Assembly (NCBI RefSeq): GCF_026000775.1
Contig: NZ_AP026830.1
Coordinates: forward strand, 2,131,056-2,195,055
DNA: 64,000 nt
Direction of reading: 5' to 3'
Origin: Vulcanisaeta souniana JCM 11219
GTDB taxonomy: Archaea; Thermoproteota; Thermoprotei; Thermoproteales; Thermocladiaceae
Of the stretch, positions 32,108-41,003 are shown piece by piece; the stretch's first letter is position 1, and each line of letters begins with the position of its first letter. The position numbers and the translations under genes are program-made. The notes beneath the pieces are model-generated. The model was given only the letters and a program-made list of their open reading frames with translations, was not told where the DNA came from and ran no database searches.

Positions 32108-33433
32108 TTGCGGAGGGTAATAATACTGGGTGCGGGTGGTCGAGACCTGCACGTATTCAATACGTACTTCAGGCATAACCCAGAGTATAGGGTTGTTGCT
32201 GTAGCTCAGGTACAGATACCGGGTATCGGCGGTAAGCGCTACATAAAGGGTTCAGGGGATCTTTACCAACCAGGTGGTGTACCATTAATTGGCCTTGGGA
32301 ACCTAGAGGACTTAAGCCGTTTAATAAGGGATCTCGGGGCTGACGAGGTTATCCTGGCGTACAGCGACCTGCTCTATAATGATGTTGGTAGGATAATAAG
32401 CATAGTCCTTGCAAATGGCGCGAGCTTTAGGATACTAGGTCCTAGGGATACCATGATAAGATCCTCAAGGCCGATGCTGGGTGTCGTGGCAACGAGGACG
32501 GGGGCTGGTAAGTCAACAGTATCGCATGAAGTAACGCTGGAGTTAATTAGGAGAGGCTTGAGGGTTGCGTCCATTAGGCACCCAATGATTTACATGAACC
32601 CTGACGACATGCTAGTGCAAGTATTTAAGACCAGGGAGGATCTAATGAAAATAACCTTTGAGGAGAGGGAGGAGTATGAGCACTACATTGAGATCGGTGT
32701 GCCGGTACTTGCGGGTGTTGATTATGAAATGATACTCAATGAGGCAGAGGCCATGGCAGATGTAATACTATGGGATGGTGGCAATAACGACTTCCCATTT
32801 TACTACACCGATTACTTAATAACAGTTACTGATGCCAGGAGACCGGGGCATGAGGTTGGTAGCTTCCCTGGCGAGGTTAATACAAGGCTTGCTGATGCCG
32901 TGATAGTTACTAAGGTCTCTGACTCAACCCCTGAGAATGTTAAGACCATAATTAGTAATATTAAAGCCGTAAACCCAAGGGCATCAATAACACAGGCAGA
33001 TCTTGAGGTTTATTTAGACAATCCAAATGCCGTGGCTGGTAAGAAGGTCGTAATCATCGAGGACGCCCCAACAGTAACGCATGGTGGTTTACCATACGCG
33101 GCAGGTTACATAGCTGCTAGGAAGTACAATGCTGAGATAGTTGATCCAAAGCCATACGCCGTGGGCATAATAAAGGAGACCTACGCAAAGTACACGCACA
33201 TGGGACCAGTACTACCAAGCCTGGGCTACACCCCAGAGCAAATAAGGGATTTGGAGGAGACCATAAGGAGGATACCCGCCGACGTAGTCATTATGGGCAC
33301 CCCAGCCCACATTGAGGATGTTGTTAAGATTGATAAGCCCATAGTTAGGGCTAAGTGGAGGCTCAAGGTTCTTGAGGGGCCAACAATAAGCCAATTAATT
33401 GATGAGTTTCTCGAGCGTGCAAGGCTTAAGTAG
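32108..33433 (+). CDS. COG2403-type P-loop protein, cyclic 2,3-diphosphoglycerate synthetase-like
   Basis: The 441-residue protein matches the archaeal family often annotated as cyclic 2,3-diphosphoglycerate synthase or predicted GTPase. It opens with a Rossmann-like VIILGAGGRDLHVFNTYFR, then a P-loop (TRTGAGKST, about residues 128-136). EREEYEHYIEIGVPVLAGVD, ILWDGGNNDFPFYYTD and VIIEDAPTVTHGGLPYAAGY complete the signature. True cDPG synthetase makes a thermolyte in methanogens; whether this homologue does is unknown. The only start in frame is TTG 32108. It converges with the next gene, overlapping it by 8 bases. Confidence 0.75.
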   Translation: MRRVIILGAGGRDLHVFNTYFRHNPEYRVVAVAQVQIPGIGGKRYIKGSGDLYQPGGVPLIGLGNLEDLSRLIRDLGADEVILAYSDLLYNDVGRIISIVLANGASFRILGPRDTMIRSSRPMLGVVATRTGAGKSTVSHEVTLELIRRGLRVASIRHPMIYMNPDDMLVQVFKTREDLMKITFEEREEYEHYIEIGVPVLAGVDYEMILNEAEAMADVILWDGGNNDFPFYYTDYLITVTDARRPGHEVGSFPGEVNTRLADAVIVTKVSDSTPENVKTIISNIKAVNPRASITQADLEVYLDNPNAVAGKKVVIIEDAPTVTHGGLPYAAGYIAARKYNAEIVDPKPYAVGIIKETYAKYTHMGPVLPSLGYTPEQIRDLEETIRRIPADVVIMGTPAHIEDVVKIDKPIVRAKWRLKVLEGPTISQLIDEFLERARLK

Positions 33434-34055
33434 GTTTACGTTGCGCAATTAAGTCCGTTAAATACTTCGGTATTGGCTTATTATTCGTACTCATGGGTGT
33501 GCCGTAACTAATGACTATCGGTACTACACCCTCCCAATGACTATCGCCACTTATCGTTGGTCCACCCTCCCTCCTCTTAATTGCAAAGTCCTCAATACTA
33601 ACCCTAACGACGGCGACGGAATTCAATTCCTCAATAGACGGCAACTCAGTATCGTCAAGCCTCCCAGGTACCAACCTATCCATCATCAGCTGGAAAACCC
33701 GAAGCTTCTCACTTGGATCGTCAACGAACGAGCCTCTACCATATATAATGGCTGATTCATAGTTTATCGAATTATTGTATAGATTACTCGCAAGAACTAT
33801 GCCGTGCACCTCGGTAATAGCAATGACAATCGGCAAGCCACTACCAATTATCCTAATTAGCCTACTATCGGGTGAGCCGTGCATGTATACGTACTGATCA
33901 TCATTCACGTAAAGCATTGGTATCACGTATGGTTCACCACCGTCAATGAAGCCCACGTGGCATATGAAATTCCTGCTTAACAACTTCATGAGTTCATCCC
34001 TATCGTAGGACGCCCTCTCACTATACCTCACAACCTTAACCTTACGAGAACCCAT
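33426..34055 (-). CDS. Pyridoxamine 5'-phosphate oxidase-family flavin-binding protein
   Basis: 209 residues with the split-barrel FMN-binding fold: FICHVGFIDGGEPYVIPMLY, YVYMHGSPDSRLIRII and YESAIIYGRGSFVDDP. It resembles the NimA/Pyridox_ox_2 subgroup, which binds flavin, F420 or heme, not classical PdxH. A minus-strand TATA is centred 26 nt from ATG 34055. It lies beside the acyl-CoA dehydrogenase pair on the same strand, but the 94-base gap and own promoter leave a link to that pathway open. Confidence 0.8.
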   Translation of the reverse strand: MGSRKVKVVRYSERASYDRDELMKLLSRNFICHVGFIDGGEPYVIPMLYVNDDQYVYMHGSPDSRLIRIIGSGLPIVIAITEVHGIVLASNLYNNSINYESAIIYGRGSFVDDPSEKLRVFQLMMDRLVPGRLDDTELPSIEELNSVAVVRVSIEDFAIKRREGGPTISGDSHWEGVVPIVISYGTPMSTNNKPIPKYLTDLIAQRKPT

Positions 34056-34149
34056 GCAACACGTGCATCTTGAATTAATTTAAGAATTACCACTATAACA
34101 CGTTATACCAACCAACTCCTTTTGAGAAATCACTTAGCGGTCTTAACAA

Positions 34150-35064
34150 TCATACTTCACGAGCCCTCGACCTATCGTAAGACTCCCACAGCTCATCCAT
34201 GTTGAAGCCATAGACCTTACTTAACGTTACACTACGCCTCAGGTATAGGTGCAAGTCGAGCTCATCGGTGAACCCTATACCTCCATGTACCTGGATACTG
34301 TCCCTAATTGTGTTTGGGATAATCCTTGATGCGTAATCCAACGCCATGGGTGCCAGCTTCAAGTCATCAGCAGCCCTTAGGTATAGTGACCTGGCGAGCT
34401 CTATGTTAAGTGCCATGTTCACCAATTTATGTTTCACGGCCTGGAATGCACCTATTGATCTACCGAAGGCAATCCTCTTCTTTGCGTAATCCACCGATAA
34501 CTCAAGCGGTGGTTTACCAGTACCCACTATGGCTGCGGATAGTAGGAGCGCTACTAAGTCTCTATTCACACTTACCTTAGTACTCCTCCTAAAGTTGACT
34601 TGGCACCACCTCATCGAGTTATCGAAGGAGTTCAGTGGCTTTACCGAGGCATCATCCTTCCAGATTAGGTTATCGCCAATTACTATGACGTCGGCCCTAT
34701 GCGCCTCGGGCGCCATGTTTGCGGTGCTTGATATCGATATTTTCAACTTACCCTCATACTTCTCATTACCTAATTCATTACCCGTGGCTACGGCACCTAT
34801 TATTGTCGTTATGACAATACCAGGCGGAAGCCTTGAGCTCGCCTCCTCCATCAGTATTGCTGCATCCCTCGGCTTGGCGTCCCTGAAGAACTCAAACAAT
34901 CCGAAATCCACCAAGGCCTTCCATAACTCATCAAGTACTGATGTATCGCCTTCACTATAACTCCTTAGTTTGGCGGTTGACCATACCTTATTGAAGAGTT
35001 CATTCAGATTATTCAGTATTAATTTCAGTTCCTCATTTAGGTAATCCTTAATGCCGATAATCAT
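34150..35064 (-). CDS. Acyl-CoA dehydrogenase, short partner subunit
   Basis: 304 residues of the acyl-CoA dehydrogenase family with a reduced middle domain. The C-terminal helical domain is clear: YAKKRIAFGRSIGAFQAVKHKL and SIQVHGGIGFTDELDLHLYLRR. The N-terminal part is weakly conserved (LVDFGLFEFFRDAKPRDAAI). ATG 35064 follows the stop of the longer paralogue by one base, so the two are coupled and likely form a heteromer like the FadE26-27 or FadE28-29 pairs of actinobacterial steroid breakdown. The longer frame start at 35103 would overlap the neighbour by 38 bases. Confidence 0.85.
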   Translation of the reverse strand: MIIGIKDYLNEELKLILNNLNELFNKVWSTAKLRSYSEGDTSVLDELWKALVDFGLFEFFRDAKPRDAAILMEEASSRLPPGIVITTIIGAVATGNELGNEKYEGKLKISISSTANMAPEAHRADVIVIGDNLIWKDDASVKPLNSFDNSMRWCQVNFRRSTKVSVNRDLVALLLSAAIVGTGKPPLELSVDYAKKRIAFGRSIGAFQAVKHKLVNMALNIELARSLYLRAADDLKLAPMALDYASRIIPNTIRDSIQVHGGIGFTDELDLHLYLRRSVTLSKVYGFNMDELWESYDRSRAREV

Positions 35065-35065
35065 A

Positions 35066-36199
35066 CTAAACACCCTTTGGAAGCCCAAGCACGAGCTCTC
35101 CAAGGAGGTTACGCAGGATTTCAGAGGTGCCGGAGAGTATTGTATAGCCCTTACTATCTATATACCCAAAGGACCACTCGAATAGATCACCCTCAACAAG
35201 AGTCTCGGGACCCAGCTTCGACACTGCCGCTATGTATATCTTATCGAGAATCTCGGACGCCAACAACTTTATTGAAGCAGCCTCGGGCCCTACTATCTCA
35301 CCCCTCAGTGCGAGCATGAGCATCCTATCATAAAGCTCCTTAATGGCTAGCGACTCCTCGAGGAGCGCCAACGTATCCGCATCGCGTCTCACCTCCACCA
35401 GGTGCCTGGCGGCACTTGCTGCGGCGTAGGCGAAGGCGCCGCCTATGTTCAGTCTCTCGAAGTTCAAGGTGGTCATGGCAACCCTCCAGCCATCGCCAAC
35501 TTTACCAACCACGTTCTCCTTGGGAACCTTGACATTATCTAGGAAGACCTCACTAAATCCAGGCCTGCCGTTAATCTGCTTTATCGGTCTATAGGTAATT
35601 CCCTCAGACCTGGTGTCTACGATAAACATCGTTAAGCCCTTATGCCTTTCCTCAGGTGAGCCGGTCCTAGCGAGTACTAGGTAGTAATTAGCCAGGTGGA
35701 AGTCACTGCTCCAGACCTTCCTACCATTCAGTACAAAGTAATCACCCCTATCCTCAGCCTTGGTGGTTATTGCCGCCAGGTCCGAGCCGCAGCACGGCTC
35801 GGAGAAGCCCTGGGCCCAGACATCCTCACAAGTCAACATCCTCCTTAAATACCTCCTTTTCTGCCCTTCATTGCCATGAAACAGAATGGCGGGGCCTGCT
35901 ACGGATAAGCCAATTCCTGGGCAGCCGGGGTAGACAATGCCGAGACTAAGCGCCACATCCCTAACTACTAACTCCTTCCTTACGTCATCGCCATACCCAC
36001 CATACTCCTTAGGCCAACTTATGCCGACTAAGCCGGCATTATATAATGTCCTGTGCCACCTAATGGCGGCATCAATAAACCTGGGGTCCTCATAGTACCA
36101 ACCAATACCACCACGCCTAATCCTCATCTCAGGAGGAGCATTCTTAATGAACCAATCCTTAACGTAATCCCTAAACCTCTCGAGTTCCGACTCAGACAT
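35066..36199 (-). CDS. Acyl-CoA dehydrogenase, full-length partner subunit
   Basis: 377 residues with all three acyl-CoA dehydrogenase domains. Visible: FAD/substrate-contacting motif WAQGFSEPCCGSDLAAITT, NGRKVWSSDFHLANYYLVLA, the beta-domain FSEVFLDNVKVPKENVVG and C-terminal SKGYTILSGTSEILRNLLGE. It oxidises an acyl-CoA to enoyl-CoA, passing electrons to an ETF-like carrier that is not in the window. Its TATA (TTTATTAAG, about 36222-36232) lies 27 nt upstream, with CATTATTA repeats on both sides. Divergent from the acyl-CoA ligase. Confidence 0.92.
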   Translation of the reverse strand: MSESELERFRDYVKDWFIKNAPPEMRIRRGGIGWYYEDPRFIDAAIRWHRTLYNAGLVGISWPKEYGGYGDDVRKELVVRDVALSLGIVYPGCPGIGLSVAGPAILFHGNEGQKRRYLRRMLTCEDVWAQGFSEPCCGSDLAAITTKAEDRGDYFVLNGRKVWSSDFHLANYYLVLARTGSPEERHKGLTMFIVDTRSEGITYRPIKQINGRPGFSEVFLDNVKVPKENVVGKVGDGWRVAMTTLNFERLNIGGAFAYAAASAARHLVEVRRDADTLALLEESLAIKELYDRMLMLALRGEIVGPEAASIKLLASEILDKIYIAAVSKLGPETLVEGDLFEWSFGYIDSKGYTILSGTSEILRNLLGELVLGLPKGV

Positions 36200-36203
36200 A
36201 TAA

Positions 36204-36259
36204 CATTATTAGTTAATTGATTCTTAATAAACATTACCTCATTATTAATCATAATAATG
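36204..36259. promoter_or_regulatory. Candidate operator: CATTATTA repeats around the acyl-CoA dehydrogenase promoter
   Basis: CATTATTA occurs at 36204-36211 and 36240-36247, and its inverse TAATAATG at 36252-36259. The last two form an 8-bp inverted repeat with a 4-bp spacer. One copy sits between TATA and start codon, the others just upstream of the TATA, as expected for a repressor of the acyl-CoA genes. Part of this may be chance in AT-rich DNA. Confidence 0.4.
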
Positions 36260-36394
36260 TAAAGCAATCATACTATCAATATTCACAGTATAGTTTTGTA
36301 GTAATATATCTATCAATTCATAATTAATAATAAACGAATCAATGATATGTACTTTTGAGAAAAACTTAAATAATTTTTATTTATAATAAATTCA

Positions 36395-38164
36395 ATGAAT
36401 GAGCAGATCCAGCAACAACATAAGTATAATACAGAAGAAGAAGTCTTTAATGAAATTATACCTGGCTACCAATTAACTATTGACAAAATACTCAAGACAG
36501 GCGTAACGCTATTTCCCAATAATGAAATTGTTTATTGGCCTCCAAATGGCCGTAGGCTCCACTTCGCATTTAGCGAATTTAATGAAAGAGTTAACAGGCT
36601 TGGTTGGGTCCTTAAGGAACTCGACGTAGCTAGTGGTGACCCAAGGAGAATGGGTACGAGGGTCGCCATATTTGATTGGAACACGCATAGATTCCTTGAA
36701 TTGCTATATGCAGTGCCCATGTACGGTGCAGTGCTCCAACCAGTTAACATTAGGTTGGCGCCTGAGGAGATTATCTACGTGATGAATAAGTCCAGGGATG
36801 AGGTAGCCTTTGTAAATGCCGACTTCCTACCATTGATAAAGGCGATAGCCCCAAAGCTTGAGCACCTAAGGAAAATAGTCGTTATGCATGATGGTGAGGA
36901 ACCAATAAAGATTGAACGCATTGGCAATGCTGAGGTATACGATTATGAGGAGTTAATGAAGGAGGCCAGGGAATTCAACTACCCGGAGGAGCTTGATGAG
37001 AGGACTGTCATGGTGATGATGTACACCTCAGGCACCACAGGGTTGCCCAAGGCAACGATATTTAGGCATAGGGAGATAGTACTGCATGCAATCGCTGTAT
37101 TGATAATCGCAGTGTGGAATTGGTACCCAGCGCATTACCTAAGGTTCACTAGGAATGCCTATAACCCACTCGGTGAACCATCACTCCTCCTTGTACCGTT
37201 CTACCACGTGCTCGGTTGGGGAGCGCCGTACTACAACATCATGGGTGGTACACCGAAGATAGTACTGCCGGGTAGGTATGAGTGGAACCACATCATTAGG
37301 TTGATTAAGGAGGAAAAGGTAAAGAATGCGGCTGGCGTACCAACAATGCTATACCTAATGTTAAACAGTCCCGAGCTCAAGGACGTGGACCTAAGGGGAT
37401 TCCTATGGAGTCTTGGTGGTGCGGCGGTCACCAAGGGGTTGATTGAGGAGGCCAGGAAGAGGGGCGTGATATTGACTAATGGTTACGGATTGACGGAGAC
37501 GGCACCGGTCGTTATAGCGCCTGCACTATCGCCGGACCTAGTAATGAGCCTAAGCGAGGAGGAACTACAGGAATTAGTGGTCAATAGCATTGGAAAGCCC
37601 CTACCATTTGTCCAGGCCAGGGTGGTTGATGAGGAAGGTAGGGATGTGCCTAAGGATGGAAAAACCGTGGGCGAGCTGGTGCTGAGGGCTCCCTGGATAA
37701 CCCTGGGCTATTACGGAGACCCAGAGAAAACAAGGGCTGCCTTCAAGGATGTTTGGTTCCACACCGGTGACTTGGCAACGTGGGATGAGAGGGGGTTCAT
37801 ATACATCGTAGATAGGGCTAAGGACGTTATCAAGAGTGGCGGTGAGTGGATATCAAGCCTTAAACTTGAGAGCTTAATATCACTTCACCCAGCGGTTGCG
37901 GAGGTGGCGGTCATAGGCGCTACGCATGAGAAGTGGGGTGAGAGGCCCGTGGCCATTGTCGTGCTGAGGCCGGAATTCGAGGACAGGGTTAAGGAGGAGG
38001 ATATCATAAATCACGTGAGAGCATTCGTTGATGAGGGCGTTATACCGAAGTGGTGGGTGCCTGACAAGGTGATATTCGTTGATGAGCTTCCAAAGACTGG
38101 CGCGGCCAAGATCGATAAGAAGGTGCTTAGGGATAGATATAGGGATGTATTGATTAAGCGGTGA
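36395..38164 (+). CDS. Acyl-CoA synthetase (AMP-forming, fatty-acid CoA ligase type)
   Basis: 589 residues of the ANL superfamily. It activates a carboxylic acid to its CoA thioester through an acyl-adenylate. Motifs: P-loop-like MYTSGTTGLPKATIFRHRE, ILTNGYGLTETAPV, the hinge region WFHTGDLATWDERGFIYIVDRAKDVIKSGGEWIS (positions about 460-493) and the catalytic Lys in PKTGAAKIDKKVL. Sequence resembles medium- or long-chain ligases. It is divergent from the dehydrogenase pair and heads a plus-strand run with the thiolase-like, DUF35 and hydroxyacyl-CoA dehydrogenase genes, so it probably supplies their substrate. TTAAATAAT lies about 27-30 nt upstream. Confidence 0.92.
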   Translation: MNEQIQQQHKYNTEEEVFNEIIPGYQLTIDKILKTGVTLFPNNEIVYWPPNGRRLHFAFSEFNERVNRLGWVLKELDVASGDPRRMGTRVAIFDWNTHRFLELLYAVPMYGAVLQPVNIRLAPEEIIYVMNKSRDEVAFVNADFLPLIKAIAPKLEHLRKIVVMHDGEEPIKIERIGNAEVYDYEELMKEAREFNYPEELDERTVMVMMYTSGTTGLPKATIFRHREIVLHAIAVLIIAVWNWYPAHYLRFTRNAYNPLGEPSLLLVPFYHVLGWGAPYYNIMGGTPKIVLPGRYEWNHIIRLIKEEKVKNAAGVPTMLYLMLNSPELKDVDLRGFLWSLGGAAVTKGLIEEARKRGVILTNGYGLTETAPVVIAPALSPDLVMSLSEEELQELVVNSIGKPLPFVQARVVDEEGRDVPKDGKTVGELVLRAPWITLGYYGDPEKTRAAFKDVWFHTGDLATWDERGFIYIVDRAKDVIKSGGEWISSLKLESLISLHPAVAEVAVIGATHEKWGERPVAIVVLRPEFEDRVKEEDIINHVRAFVDEGVIPKWWVPDKVIFVDELPKTGAAKIDKKVLRDRYRDVLIKR

Positions 38165-38222
38165 AAATAATTATTCTCATTAAGAATTAAAAATAAATTT
38201 ATTCCTATTAATCAGGTAATTT

Positions 38223-39380
38223 ATGGGAAAGGCATACATAACGGGCTTTCACCAGGTAATTGAGAAGGAGAGCAGGAGAAGCTTCTTTGAATTGATTGGC
38301 GAGACCGTACAAAGGACGCTTGAGATGGGTGGTATCAGTATTGATGAGGCGGATGGGTTGGGCATTGTTCACACCACCGCGGTTGATGAAAGGCCGATCA
38401 GGATAATGCTCGCCAACCAAGTCGCCAATTATCTGGGCATTGGGAGGCTTAGGTACATTGACGTGGCCGAGTTTGGCGGTGCCTCATTCAATGCCCTTGT
38501 TTATCGGGCCGTTAAGGCAGTGGAGAATGGGCTTGCGAGGGCTGTCTTGGTAATTGGCGGTGGCAAGAGTAGCGTATTTAGGAGGAGGGGCATTGATGAG
38601 GGTCTTGTGGCTAGGAACTACGTAAGTACCCACAGGGTTATTGAGTTCCTACCAACCAGTGACTACGCCATGGTGGCCTTGAGGTACTCACACGTGTATA
38701 ACGCCACTGATGAGGGCAGGGCAATGATCGCCGTCAGGGAGAGGGCCAATGCTAGGTATAATAAGGATGCAATATTCAGGGAGCCGATAAGTGTTGCCGA
38801 TGTATTGAACTCACCAATGGTGAGTTACCCACTGAGGCTACTGGAGGTTGTGATGCCTGTGGATGGTATGTCGACTTTCCTAATCGTTAATGAGAGCTTG
38901 GCTGGGAAGTCGAAGATCACGCCCACCTCTATCCTTGGCTATGGCGAGGCCCACGATCCAAGCCCACTCTTTGATAGGGATGACATCTTGAATACGGTTA
39001 TCCCAATAAGCGCAGGCAAGGCGCTTAGCGAGGCCAACATTGGCATAAACGATATTGACCTATTCATGCTTTACGACGCATACACAATAATGATCGTGCT
39101 GGAGCTAGAGGGTATTGGCTTGGCCGAGAAGGGTTTGGGTTGGCGGTTCGCGGAGGATCATGATTTCTCGCCATCGTCAACATACCCAATAAACGTTAAT
39201 GGCGGTTCCCTAAACACCGGACAACCAGCGTACATGAGCGGCGGCGTGATACTTACAGAGGCATTAACCCAACTGTCCGGCATGGCCGGTGAAAGGCAGG
39301 TTAAGGGAGCCCGTAGGGCACTTGTCAATGCAATTGGCGGCATACTTAATCACTCAACAACCTTGGTCCTTGGTGTTTAG
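38223..39380 (+). CDS. Thiolase-like protein lacking catalytic Cys and His (Ltp2/lipid-transfer type)
   Basis: 385 residues with the thiolase fold. The nucleophile position of normal thiolases (ACASG) reads IDVAEFGGASFNAL here, with no Cys; the usual GHPLGATG reads GGSLNTGQPAYMSGG, and the C-terminal CxG site reads GGILNHSTTLVLG. So it cannot be an ordinary thiolase. This pattern is shared with Ltp2-type proteins, which act as retro-aldolases on beta-hydroxyacyl-CoAs in steroid side-chain breakdown and need a DUF35 partner. The DUF35 gene follows one base after the stop. Aldolase activity is inference; a scaffold role is possible. Confidence 0.85.
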   Translation: MGKAYITGFHQVIEKESRRSFFELIGETVQRTLEMGGISIDEADGLGIVHTTAVDERPIRIMLANQVANYLGIGRLRYIDVAEFGGASFNALVYRAVKAVENGLARAVLVIGGGKSSVFRRRGIDEGLVARNYVSTHRVIEFLPTSDYAMVALRYSHVYNATDEGRAMIAVRERANARYNKDAIFREPISVADVLNSPMVSYPLRLLEVVMPVDGMSTFLIVNESLAGKSKITPTSILGYGEAHDPSPLFDRDDILNTVIPISAGKALSEANIGINDIDLFMLYDAYTIMIVLELEGIGLAEKGLGWRFAEDHDFSPSSTYPINVNGGSLNTGQPAYMSGGVILTEALTQLSGMAGERQVKGARRALVNAIGGILNHSTTLVLGV

Positions 39381-39381
39381 T

Positions 39382-39723
39382 ATGGAACTCGAAGAATTAC
39401 TGAAGGAGTACAATAGAATCTATGAAAATGGGTTAGTGCCAATAACACGGTGCAGGGCATGTGGCTATAAGTTCCACATGCCAAGGACCAGGTGTCCCAG
39501 GTGCGGCTCAACGAACCTGGAGGTTATTGGCTACGGCGAGGGCACCATCTACTCATACACAATAATAGAGAGGGGATTGCCAACAAAGACAATAGTCGTT
39601 CTCGTGGACTTCGATGGAGCCAAGGTTAAGGCGAATTACGTTGGTGATTTGAATGCGCTGAGGATAGGGGCTAGGGTCAGGGTTGTTAGGAGGGATGGTA
39701 ATATATACTTTACAAATTATTAA
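39382..39723 (+). CDS. DUF35 OB-fold/zinc-ribbon protein, partner of the thiolase-like protein
   Basis: 113 residues. An N-terminal helix (MELEELLKEYNRIYENG) leads to a rubredoxin-like zinc ribbon with four cysteines (CRACGYKFHMPRTRCPRCGS), then an OB fold (GEGTIYSYTIIERGLPTK). DUF35 proteins bind thiolase-like enzymes and are needed for their activity or acyl transfer. ATG 39382 is one base after the neighbour's stop, so I take it rather than the longer open frame that overlaps the thiolase-like gene. Confidence 0.92.
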   Translation: MELEELLKEYNRIYENGLVPITRCRACGYKFHMPRTRCPRCGSTNLEVIGYGEGTIYSYTIIERGLPTKTIVVLVDFDGAKVKANYVGDLNALRIGARVRVVRRDGNIYFTNY

Positions 39724-39809
39724 ATAGCAATACATTTATTATATATGAAAATATATTAAGAGTAAAAATACACCTAATATTTACATTTACGGGTACTTCT
39801 ACTGATTAT

Positions 39810-41003
39810 ATGGTCGAGAGAATTCTCATAGTTGGATTTGGGACCATGGGGAGCGGTATAGCCGAGGTCTTTGCCATGAATGGCTTTGAGGTAAATGTCT
39901 ATGATGCTTACAGGGACGTGATACCCAAGAGCCTTGAGGGTATTAGGTGGAGCCTTGGTAAGCTACGTGAGAAGGGCTCTCTTCGTGAGGACGTTGATAC
40001 CGTCATGAAGAGGATTCATGTGTTTGATAATCTGGGTAATGCGGCCAGGGGTGTTGATTTGGTAATTGAGGCTGTGTTCGAGGATCCAAAGGTTAAGCAC
40101 CAGGTGTATAGGGAGTTGGAGGGTTACGTCGGTAAGGACGTAATAATAGCGAGCAACACAAGCGGTATACCAATAACCTACTTGCAATCGGTGCTTCAGT
40201 ATAAGGGTAGATTCGCGGGCTTCCACTGGTTTAATCCGCCGGTTCTCATGAGGCTTGTGGAAGTTATAAAGGGCAGGGATACCAGTGATGAGACGGCCGG
40301 CGCACTCATGGACCTGGCAAGGAGGGTTGGTAAGGAGCCTATTCTCGTTAGGCGCGATGTAAGGGGTTTCATAGCCAATAGGGTGTTTGGTGTACTGAGT
40401 ACGCAGGTCTTCATACTATATATGCGGGGCATCTATGACTATAGGGCGATGGACTCGGCGTTGATCTATAGACTTGGACTCCCCATGGGCGTCTTCGCAC
40501 TCACGGACTTCACCGGGGGAATAAAGCTAAGTTATGAGAGTAGGAACCTATTTGAGGAGATAGATAGGGTGGCGCCTGAGACCGAGTCATCCAAGGGGCT
40601 GGCTAAGGCAAGAACGTTTGTGTTCAGCCTAATTGAGAAAATGTACAGGGAGGGTAGGATAGGCATAAGGACTGGGAAGGGGTTCTATGAATACCCGGAG
40701 CCGGGCAGGTGGGTTAGGCCGGATATACCGAGGGAATTGGCTGACAGGGTGAATTTACTGGACCTGCTGGCGCCCATGGTCAACGAATCACTAAGAATGG
40801 AGAGGCTGGGTATATGCACCAGGGGTGATATAGACAAGGCACTAAAGCTTGGCTATAACTGGCCAAAGGGCTTATTTGAAATATACGGCAGGGACTTCAC
40901 TGCAACGGATGTGGTGAATACGCTTAGGAGGATGAGCGACTTGATCCCAGACCTAAGGGAGTTCTATGAACCAGACCCGGCACTACTAAATGAGGCTAAG
41001 TGA
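39810..41003 (+). CDS. 3-hydroxyacyl-CoA dehydrogenase
   Basis: 397 residues: NAD-binding ILIVGFGTMGSGIAEVFAMNG, the conserved DLVIEAVFEDPKVK, SNTSGIPITYL, and the catalytic His-Glu pair in GFHWFNPPVLMRLVEVIKG. The C-terminal helical domain occurs in two repeats (GFIANRVFG; GICTRGDIDKALKLG). It oxidises (S)-3-hydroxyacyl-CoA to 3-ketoacyl-CoA. No enoyl-CoA hydratase domain is fused, in contrast to many crenarchaeal homologues. It completes the acyl-CoA cluster, although the hydratase itself is absent from the window. Confidence 0.93.
   Translation: MVERILIVGFGTMGSGIAEVFAMNGFEVNVYDAYRDVIPKSLEGIRWSLGKLREKGSLREDVDTVMKRIHVFDNLGNAARGVDLVIEAVFEDPKVKHQVYRELEGYVGKDVIIASNTSGIPITYLQSVLQYKGRFAGFHWFNPPVLMRLVEVIKGRDTSDETAGALMDLARRVGKEPILVRRDVRGFIANRVFGVLSTQVFILYMRGIYDYRAMDSALIYRLGLPMGVFALTDFTGGIKLSYESRNLFEEIDRVAPETESSKGLAKARTFVFSLIEKMYREGRIGIRTGKGFYEYPEPGRWVRPDIPRELADRVNLLDLLAPMVNESLRMERLGICTRGDIDKALKLGYNWPKGLFEIYGRDFTATDVVNTLRRMSDLIPDLREFYEPDPALLNEAK

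Follow-up and report, generated by a model that had tools for sequence, protein, structure and literature searches.

A six-gene archaeal cassette for acyl-CoA catabolism encoding a cysteine-less thiolase-fold protein and its DUF35 partner in Vulcanisaeta souniana

Organization and boundaries of the cassette

A stretch of 64,000 nucleotides of the genome of Vulcanisaeta souniana JCM 11219 (contig NZ_AP026830.1, positions 2,131,056 to 2,195,055; hereafter the window) was analyzed for its content of genes for coenzyme A (CoA) ester metabolism. The genome is a single contig of 2,432,148 bases. In the window, six genes at positions 34150–41003 form a unit whose role as a cassette for acyl-CoA catabolism is well supported. 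It is set apart by a thiolase-fold protein devoid of cysteine, which is encoded together with a DUF35 protein and may be a retro-aldolase.

The cassette is arranged in two divergent groups. On the minus strand, 34150..35064 encodes a short acyl-CoA dehydrogenase (ACAD) subunit with an Acyl-CoA_dh_1 domain, and 35066..36199 encodes a full-length subunit with three ACAD domains. The open reading frame listed for the short subunit extends to 35103; since the relatives in Sulfolobaceae start at the Met corresponding to 35064, translation probably begins there, one base past the stop of the full subunit, which gives a protein of about 304 amino acids. On the plus strand, 36395..38164 encodes an acyl-CoA ligase (AMP-binding and AMP-binding_C domains); 38223..39380 encodes the Cys-less thiolase-fold protein (Thiolase_C_1); 39382..39723 encodes a DUF35 / OB_ChsH2_C protein with a C-x2-C-x10-C-x2-C zinc ribbon (OB_ChsH2_C and zf-ChsH2); and 39810..41003 encodes a 3-hydroxyacyl-CoA dehydrogenase (3HCDH_N and 3HCDH) with no enoyl-CoA hydratase domain. 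The stop codon of the thiolase-like gene (39378–39380) and the ATG of the DUF35 gene (39382) are separated by one base. Between the two groups, the sequence reads as an AT-rich intergenic region of 195 bases (36200..36394), which may contain the promoter.

Domain and family matches confirmed the genes and families that a first-pass annotation of the window had named. Its interval, 33426–41003, was kept only in part. The six genes from 34150 belong to the unit, but the first gene (33426–34055, minus strand), which encodes a pyridoxamine-oxidase-like protein, is a core gene outside the cassette, because in five relatives within the genus that are without the cassette (L105, L106, L107, L109 and L110) it directly adjoins a B3/4-domain gene at the corresponding site. 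In L108 the pyridoxamine-oxidase-like gene is also missing, and the preceding 441-aa gene adjoins the B3/4-domain gene. A 441-aa protein is encoded in the window at 32108–33433; it has no Pfam or NCBIfam match, yet is 85–94% identical across the genus, and is presumably cyclic-2,3-diphosphoglycerate-synthetase-like.

The cassette is optional and patchily distributed. The thiolase-like gene was present in four of 45 genomes of the order, all of them from the genus of the window. Frame breaks occur in two of the relatives (G017 and G020); a reading as pseudogenes was rejected, since the flanking core genes are broken likewise, which suggests sequence errors. No sign of recent transfer was seen in base composition: the GC content is 47.8% in the cassette and 45.7% in the window, and the GC content at third codon positions of the cassette genes overlaps that of their neighbours. 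No tRNA adjoining the cassette and no clear flanking repeats around it were found. Part of the short dehydrogenase, 71 residues with 77% identity, survives in the cassette-free genome G022 (L106:7552-7764), about 4 kb away from where the cassette is usually inserted.

Active site of the thiolase-like protein

The best sequence match of the thiolase-like protein in the PDB was CtSal, a bile-acid side-chain aldolase from Comamonas (9myr, E 4e-50), which was also the best fold match of its AlphaFold model (mean predicted local distance difference test score 82.7). Each active-site residue was matched to its counterpart in CtSal and TcLtp2, in an alignment keyed to the published numbering of these two proteins. 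Gly86 occupies the position of the thiolase nucleophile (Sal Gly89), Tyr284 that of the catalytic His (Sal Tyr302, the base) and Gln334 that of the second His (Sal Gln352; Tyr344 in Ltp2). Tyr148 corresponds to Sal Tyr165, and Ala286 to Sal Cys304, the acid. The earlier reading of a thiolase fold with neither Cys nor His at the active site, followed at one base by DUF35, was therefore correct. A catalytic Cys elsewhere, which the first-pass annotation had named as a finding against its retro-aldol proposal, is excluded, as the whole sequence has no cysteine.

The protein belongs to an archaeal clade of 22 members from distant archaeal groups. Gly86, Tyr284, Asp285 and Gln334 are invariant in all 22, as are Asn324 and the glycine loops. 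Since the nucleophile is replaced by Gly in every member, thiolysis via an acyl-enzyme is ruled out. The position of Sal Cys304 is occupied by Ser in 16 members and by Ala in the other six, including the protein of the window. In CtSal, the substitutions C304A and C304S abolish activity, and Tyr302 is required (PMC12329534). Judged from the alignment, the archaeal clade retains the base Tyr and has lost both known general acids, Sal Cys304 and Ltp2 Tyr344. His377 is kept in 21 of the 22 members, with Asp in the remaining one, and is a candidate proton donor. Tyr337 is a less likely donor, as it is Phe in L044, the nearest relative outside the genus.

The protein and its partner share with CtSal and its CtShy-DUF35 partner the Gly at the nucleophile position, the Tyr base in a YDxY motif, the equivalent of Gln352 and the association with DUF35, but differ in the catalytic acid. 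The partners also differ: in Shy a DUF35 with C3H1 zinc coordination is fused to MaoC, whereas the DUF35 protein of the window is stand-alone, has a four-Cys (C4) zinc ribbon and belongs to a cassette without MaoC. With TcLtp2 and its ChsH2-DUF35 partner, the aldolase of the steroid C3 side chain (6ok1), the pair has in common the Gly, the Tyr base, DUF35 and the C4 zinc ribbon; on the other hand, YDHF of Ltp2 is YDAY here, and Ltp2 Tyr344 is Gln334.

The genome of the window encodes another thiolase-like protein without the nucleophile Cys (ESGDGSSG) at G000:C1:180489-180764 (L006), with HDTY and GFP motifs. It has a very long branch in the trees, joined with Sulfolobus ST0096 and a Pyrococcus thiolase.

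Phylogeny of the thiolase-like protein

Two trees were built, of 77 and 67 proteins, with branch support given as paired values. In each of them the archaeal thiolase-like proteins formed one clade (100/99 and 100/100) whose sister group was Sal (100/98 each time), and a 100/99 branch split the Cys/His thiolases from these two groups. The clustering with mevalonate-pathway thiolases that the first-pass annotation had put forward as the opposing outcome was not seen; the protein groups on the Sal side, outside the Cys/His thiolases. As Sal was represented by the single CtSal row, long-branch attraction was checked by adding four further Sal-type proteins, and the grouping with all five held (100/98). 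The archaeal stem is long (0.85 changes per column), so that the support values overstate the certainty about the exact sister group. In the approximately unbiased (AU) test, the placement of the archaeal proteins with the thiolases on one side of a branch gave a marginal result (p 0.0504).

In both trees the archaeal proteins fell outside the Ltp2 clade. The resemblance to actinobacteria and their Ltp2 system that had been claimed for this locus was not supported as a special one: the nearest relative is the proteobacterial Sal, YDHF and Tyr344 are absent, and the cassette is without a MaoC hydratase. From alignment and trees, the thiolase-like protein is best described as a variant on the Sal side of the retro-aldolases, not as a proven Sal or Ltp2.

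A joint clade of the archaeal proteins and the bacterial YDSF family was rejected (p 0.003). This family resembles the archaeal clade in the absence of the nucleophile Cys, in the Tyr base and in its OB-fold (oligonucleotide/oligosaccharide-binding fold) or DUF35 neighbours in annotated plasmid examples, but carries His at the position that is Gln334 in the archaeal proteins. The relatives with YDSF (L116-L190) form a large, mostly bacterial but also haloarchaeal, thiolase-like family without the nucleophile Cys, which matched one solved structure, from Sphaerobacter (4u4e).

The acyl-CoA dehydrogenase pair and the other enzymes

The two dehydrogenases look like a heteromeric pair, for which complex formation is predicted. 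The best solved relatives of the full subunit (6wy9/6wy8 and 4x28) are subunits of heterotetrameric steroid ACADs. Like 6wy9 and 4x28, it is without the canonical C-terminal catalytic Glu, with SGTSE in place of EGT. The best curated family for the short subunit was IpdE2, which scored 102 bits, far below its cut-off of 450, while the second-best family reached 66 bits; in the PDB, its best matches were generic ACADs. The short subunit retains an acidic residue in GFTDE, and Asp stands at that site in its Sulfolobaceae relatives. We take the acidic residue of this GFTxE motif to be the catalytic one. The earlier claim that the coupled dehydrogenase pair is of the heteromeric kind is supported. 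In the heterotetrameric steroid-type dehydrogenases, the catalytic Glu is on one subunit only (PMC8399759). Adjacent full and short subunits, the full one without the catalytic Glu, are found also in Tcur3481-Tcur3483 (6wy8), FadE26-FadE27 (4x28) and IpdE1-IpdE2; the pair of the window differs from these in being archaeal, in scoring far under the curated cut-offs and in its tie to fatty-acid genes in Sulfolobaceae.

The ligase scored above the cut-off of a long-chain-fatty-acid-CoA ligase subfamily (521 bits vs 476). The PDB relatives of the 3-hydroxyacyl-CoA dehydrogenase are 3-hydroxyacyl- and 3-hydroxybutyryl-CoA dehydrogenases, and its translation has the FHWFNP and VEV motifs. A domain search of 33426–41003 detected no hydratase, MaoC included, unlike the steroid side-chain clusters, which have a heteromeric MaoC hydratase. 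The genome has seven matches to crotonases, including two in fusions with hydroxyacyl-CoA dehydrogenase, and a single MaoC gene elsewhere; this gene shares 61% identity with one located beside ligase and thiolase-like/DUF35 genes in genome G122. True thiolases are also encoded elsewhere, both of the FadA type and of the DUF35-linked type, the latter as two separate Cys/His proteins.

Gene context in related genomes

Relatives of the short subunit occur in Sulfolobaceae-like genomes. In one of these (G116), which we take to be Sulfolobus acidocaldarius, a cluster at 908–917 kb beside a TetR gene encodes relatives of both dehydrogenases (52% and 38%), a ligase relative (36%) and a protein in which hydroxyacyl-CoA dehydrogenase and hydratase are fused. 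This cluster falls within the FadR regulon of fatty-acid genes of S. acidocaldarius, at 903–932 kb (PMC6449355). Because the dehydrogenase relatives sit in an acyl-CoA-responsive FadR fatty-acid cluster, fatty-acid-like substrates are indicated and steroids are unlikely. The FadR cluster (Saci_1103-Saci_1126) resembles the cassette in its homologues of both dehydrogenases, the ligase and the hydroxyacyl-CoA dehydrogenase, but, as read here, is without the thiolase-like/DUF35 pair of the archaeal clade, whose S. acidocaldarius copies, apparently two, are elsewhere in that genome.

In four genomes of one genus (G122, G390, G401 and G404), a similar cluster also has the thiolase-like/DUF35 pair near its TetR gene, and a true FadA-type thiolase. 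In G122, two thiolase-like/DUF35 pairs occur within 10 kb (L044:7373-17126), with MaoC, ligase, amidohydrolase-looking and enolase-superfamily-looking genes; one of these pairs is the closest relative of the window pair outside its genus. In addition, a protein similar to the ribonucleotide reductase small chain is encoded directly before the short dehydrogenase in fatty-acid clusters of Sulfolobaceae-like genomes (L236:8925-9848 and L231:15038-15964), and is possibly an R2-like ligand-binding oxidase.

Among the archaeal relatives, the thiolase-like and DUF35 genes are kept as a tight pair almost everywhere, in the same gene order. Loci of Nitrososphaeria and Thermoplasmata (L111, L112, L114 and L115) have a conserved four-gene operon of short-chain dehydrogenase/reductase (SDR), ligase, thiolase-like and DUF35 genes, without dehydrogenase or hydratase, and L045 and L048 have an SDR, thiolase-like and DUF35 arrangement. 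The neighbours of bacterial Sal-type genes located on plasmids are OB-fold, MaoC, acyl-CoA dehydrogenase, ligase or CoA-transferase genes, and one of the Sal-type genes is near a coniferyl aldehyde dehydrogenase gene.

Proposed function

We propose that the six genes, as an optional cassette, serve the catabolism of fatty-acid-like carboxylic acids, with a retro-aldol cleavage by the thiolase-like/DUF35 pair where ordinary thiolysis fails. The acids would be converted to CoA esters by the ligase; the two dehydrogenase subunits, full and short, would act as a single heteromeric enzyme and introduce the alpha,beta double bond; and a hydratase encoded elsewhere in the genome would add water. The 3-hydroxyacyl-CoA dehydrogenase could then oxidise secondary 3-hydroxyacyl-CoAs, with the last step left to the true thiolases encoded elsewhere. 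3-Hydroxyacyl-CoAs barred from this route, such as tertiary alcohols from beta-branched chains, would be split by the thiolase-like/DUF35 pair, with Tyr284 as the base, into a ketone or aldehyde and a short acyl-CoA.

For the steroid C3 side chain, the point has been made that a tertiary 3-hydroxyacyl-CoA is not oxidisable to the ketone (PMC8399759). By analogy, tertiary 3-hydroxyacyl-CoAs from beta-methyl-branched chains may be why archaea have an enzyme of this kind alongside ordinary beta-oxidation genes. Branched or isoprenoid acyl-CoAs, as the first-pass annotation had suggested, are possible substrates.

The retro-aldol reaction is the most likely one for the pair, because there is no nucleophile for acyl-enzyme thiolysis and the nearest characterised relatives are retro-aldolases. 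The reaction, its substrate, the formation of a complex and the proton donor are nevertheless inferred, and four observations weigh against the proposal. With Ala or Ser at the Sal Cys304 site and Gln at the Ltp2 Tyr344 site, no proton donor was identified; the adjacent 3-hydroxyacyl-CoA dehydrogenase is unneeded in a pure retro-aldol route; the operons of many archaeal relatives are without dehydrogenases; and the literature searched yielded no report of activity for a member from archaea. Since the catalytic acid is missing, we consider the proposal about evenly balanced between right and wrong.

Two other explanations are each unlikely. The cassette may serve ordinary fatty-acid beta-oxidation, with a catalytically dead thiolase-like/DUF35 pair acting as a scaffold or acyl-CoA carrier and the true thiolases elsewhere doing the cleavage. 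The loss of every known catalytic acid fits this explanation, as does the presence of FadA-type and DUF35-linked true thiolases in the same genome and of a true thiolase in the Sulfolobaceae FadR-type cluster. However, drift would be expected at the active site if the pair were a dead scaffold, whereas the 22 archaeal members show no variation in Tyr284, Asp285, Gln334, Asn324 or the glycine loops, and the tight gene pair has been retained almost everywhere. With a similarly low probability, the pair catalyses another reaction of CoA esters, namely aldol condensation, decarboxylation or hydrolysis, for which the operons with an SDR gene speak. Among characterised proteins, however, its closest relatives are the retro-aldolases Sal and Ltp2; CtSal does not decarboxylate malonyl-CoA (PMC12329534); and the window cassette has a dehydrogenase step that gives the precursor of a substrate of the Sal or Ltp2 kind.

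Breakdown of steroid or bile-acid side chains, as in actinobacteria and proteobacteria, is very improbable. A heteromeric dehydrogenase signature together with a thiolase of the aldolase branch and its DUF35 does make up a steroid side-chain set, but the cassette has neither a MaoC-DUF35 hydratase nor a second hydratase subunit, the catalytic residues of Ltp2 and Sal are both incomplete, and the dehydrogenase relatives are in the fatty-acid cluster of S. acidocaldarius. Finally, a mevalonate-pathway acetoacetyl-CoA thiolase/DUF35 pair has a negligible chance, since, although DUF35 partners occur also in the archaeal thiolase/hydroxymethylglutaryl-CoA synthase complex and 6esq and 6et9 are among the structure matches, a protein without cysteine has no nucleophile, the trees place it outside the two separate Cys/His proteins of the DUF35-linked type in this genome, and joining the archaeal proteins to the thiolases was only marginal in the AU test.

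A more specific version of the retro-aldol proposal, which we regard as improbable, is that this archaeal retro-aldolase uses a new proton donor, for which His377 is a candidate. The pair would split the tertiary 3-hydroxyacyl-CoA of beta-methyl-branched isoprenoid acyl-CoAs, including those derived from archaeal membrane lipids, without the carboxylation step of bacterial acyclic terpene breakdown. No papers on archaeal lipid breakdown by such a route were found in the literature searched.

Thiolase-fold aldolases have previously been known from bacterial steroid breakdown. An archaeal clade that is a deep sister group of Sal and has neither of the known catalytic acids would reveal how the thiolase fold shifts its chemistry. 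The pair would also offer an enzyme with which to test how archaea degrade branched or isoprenoid fatty acids, a gap in the understanding of their metabolism. In addition, heteromeric acyl-CoA dehydrogenases, regarded as steroid enzymes, are tied to an archaeal fatty-acid regulon.

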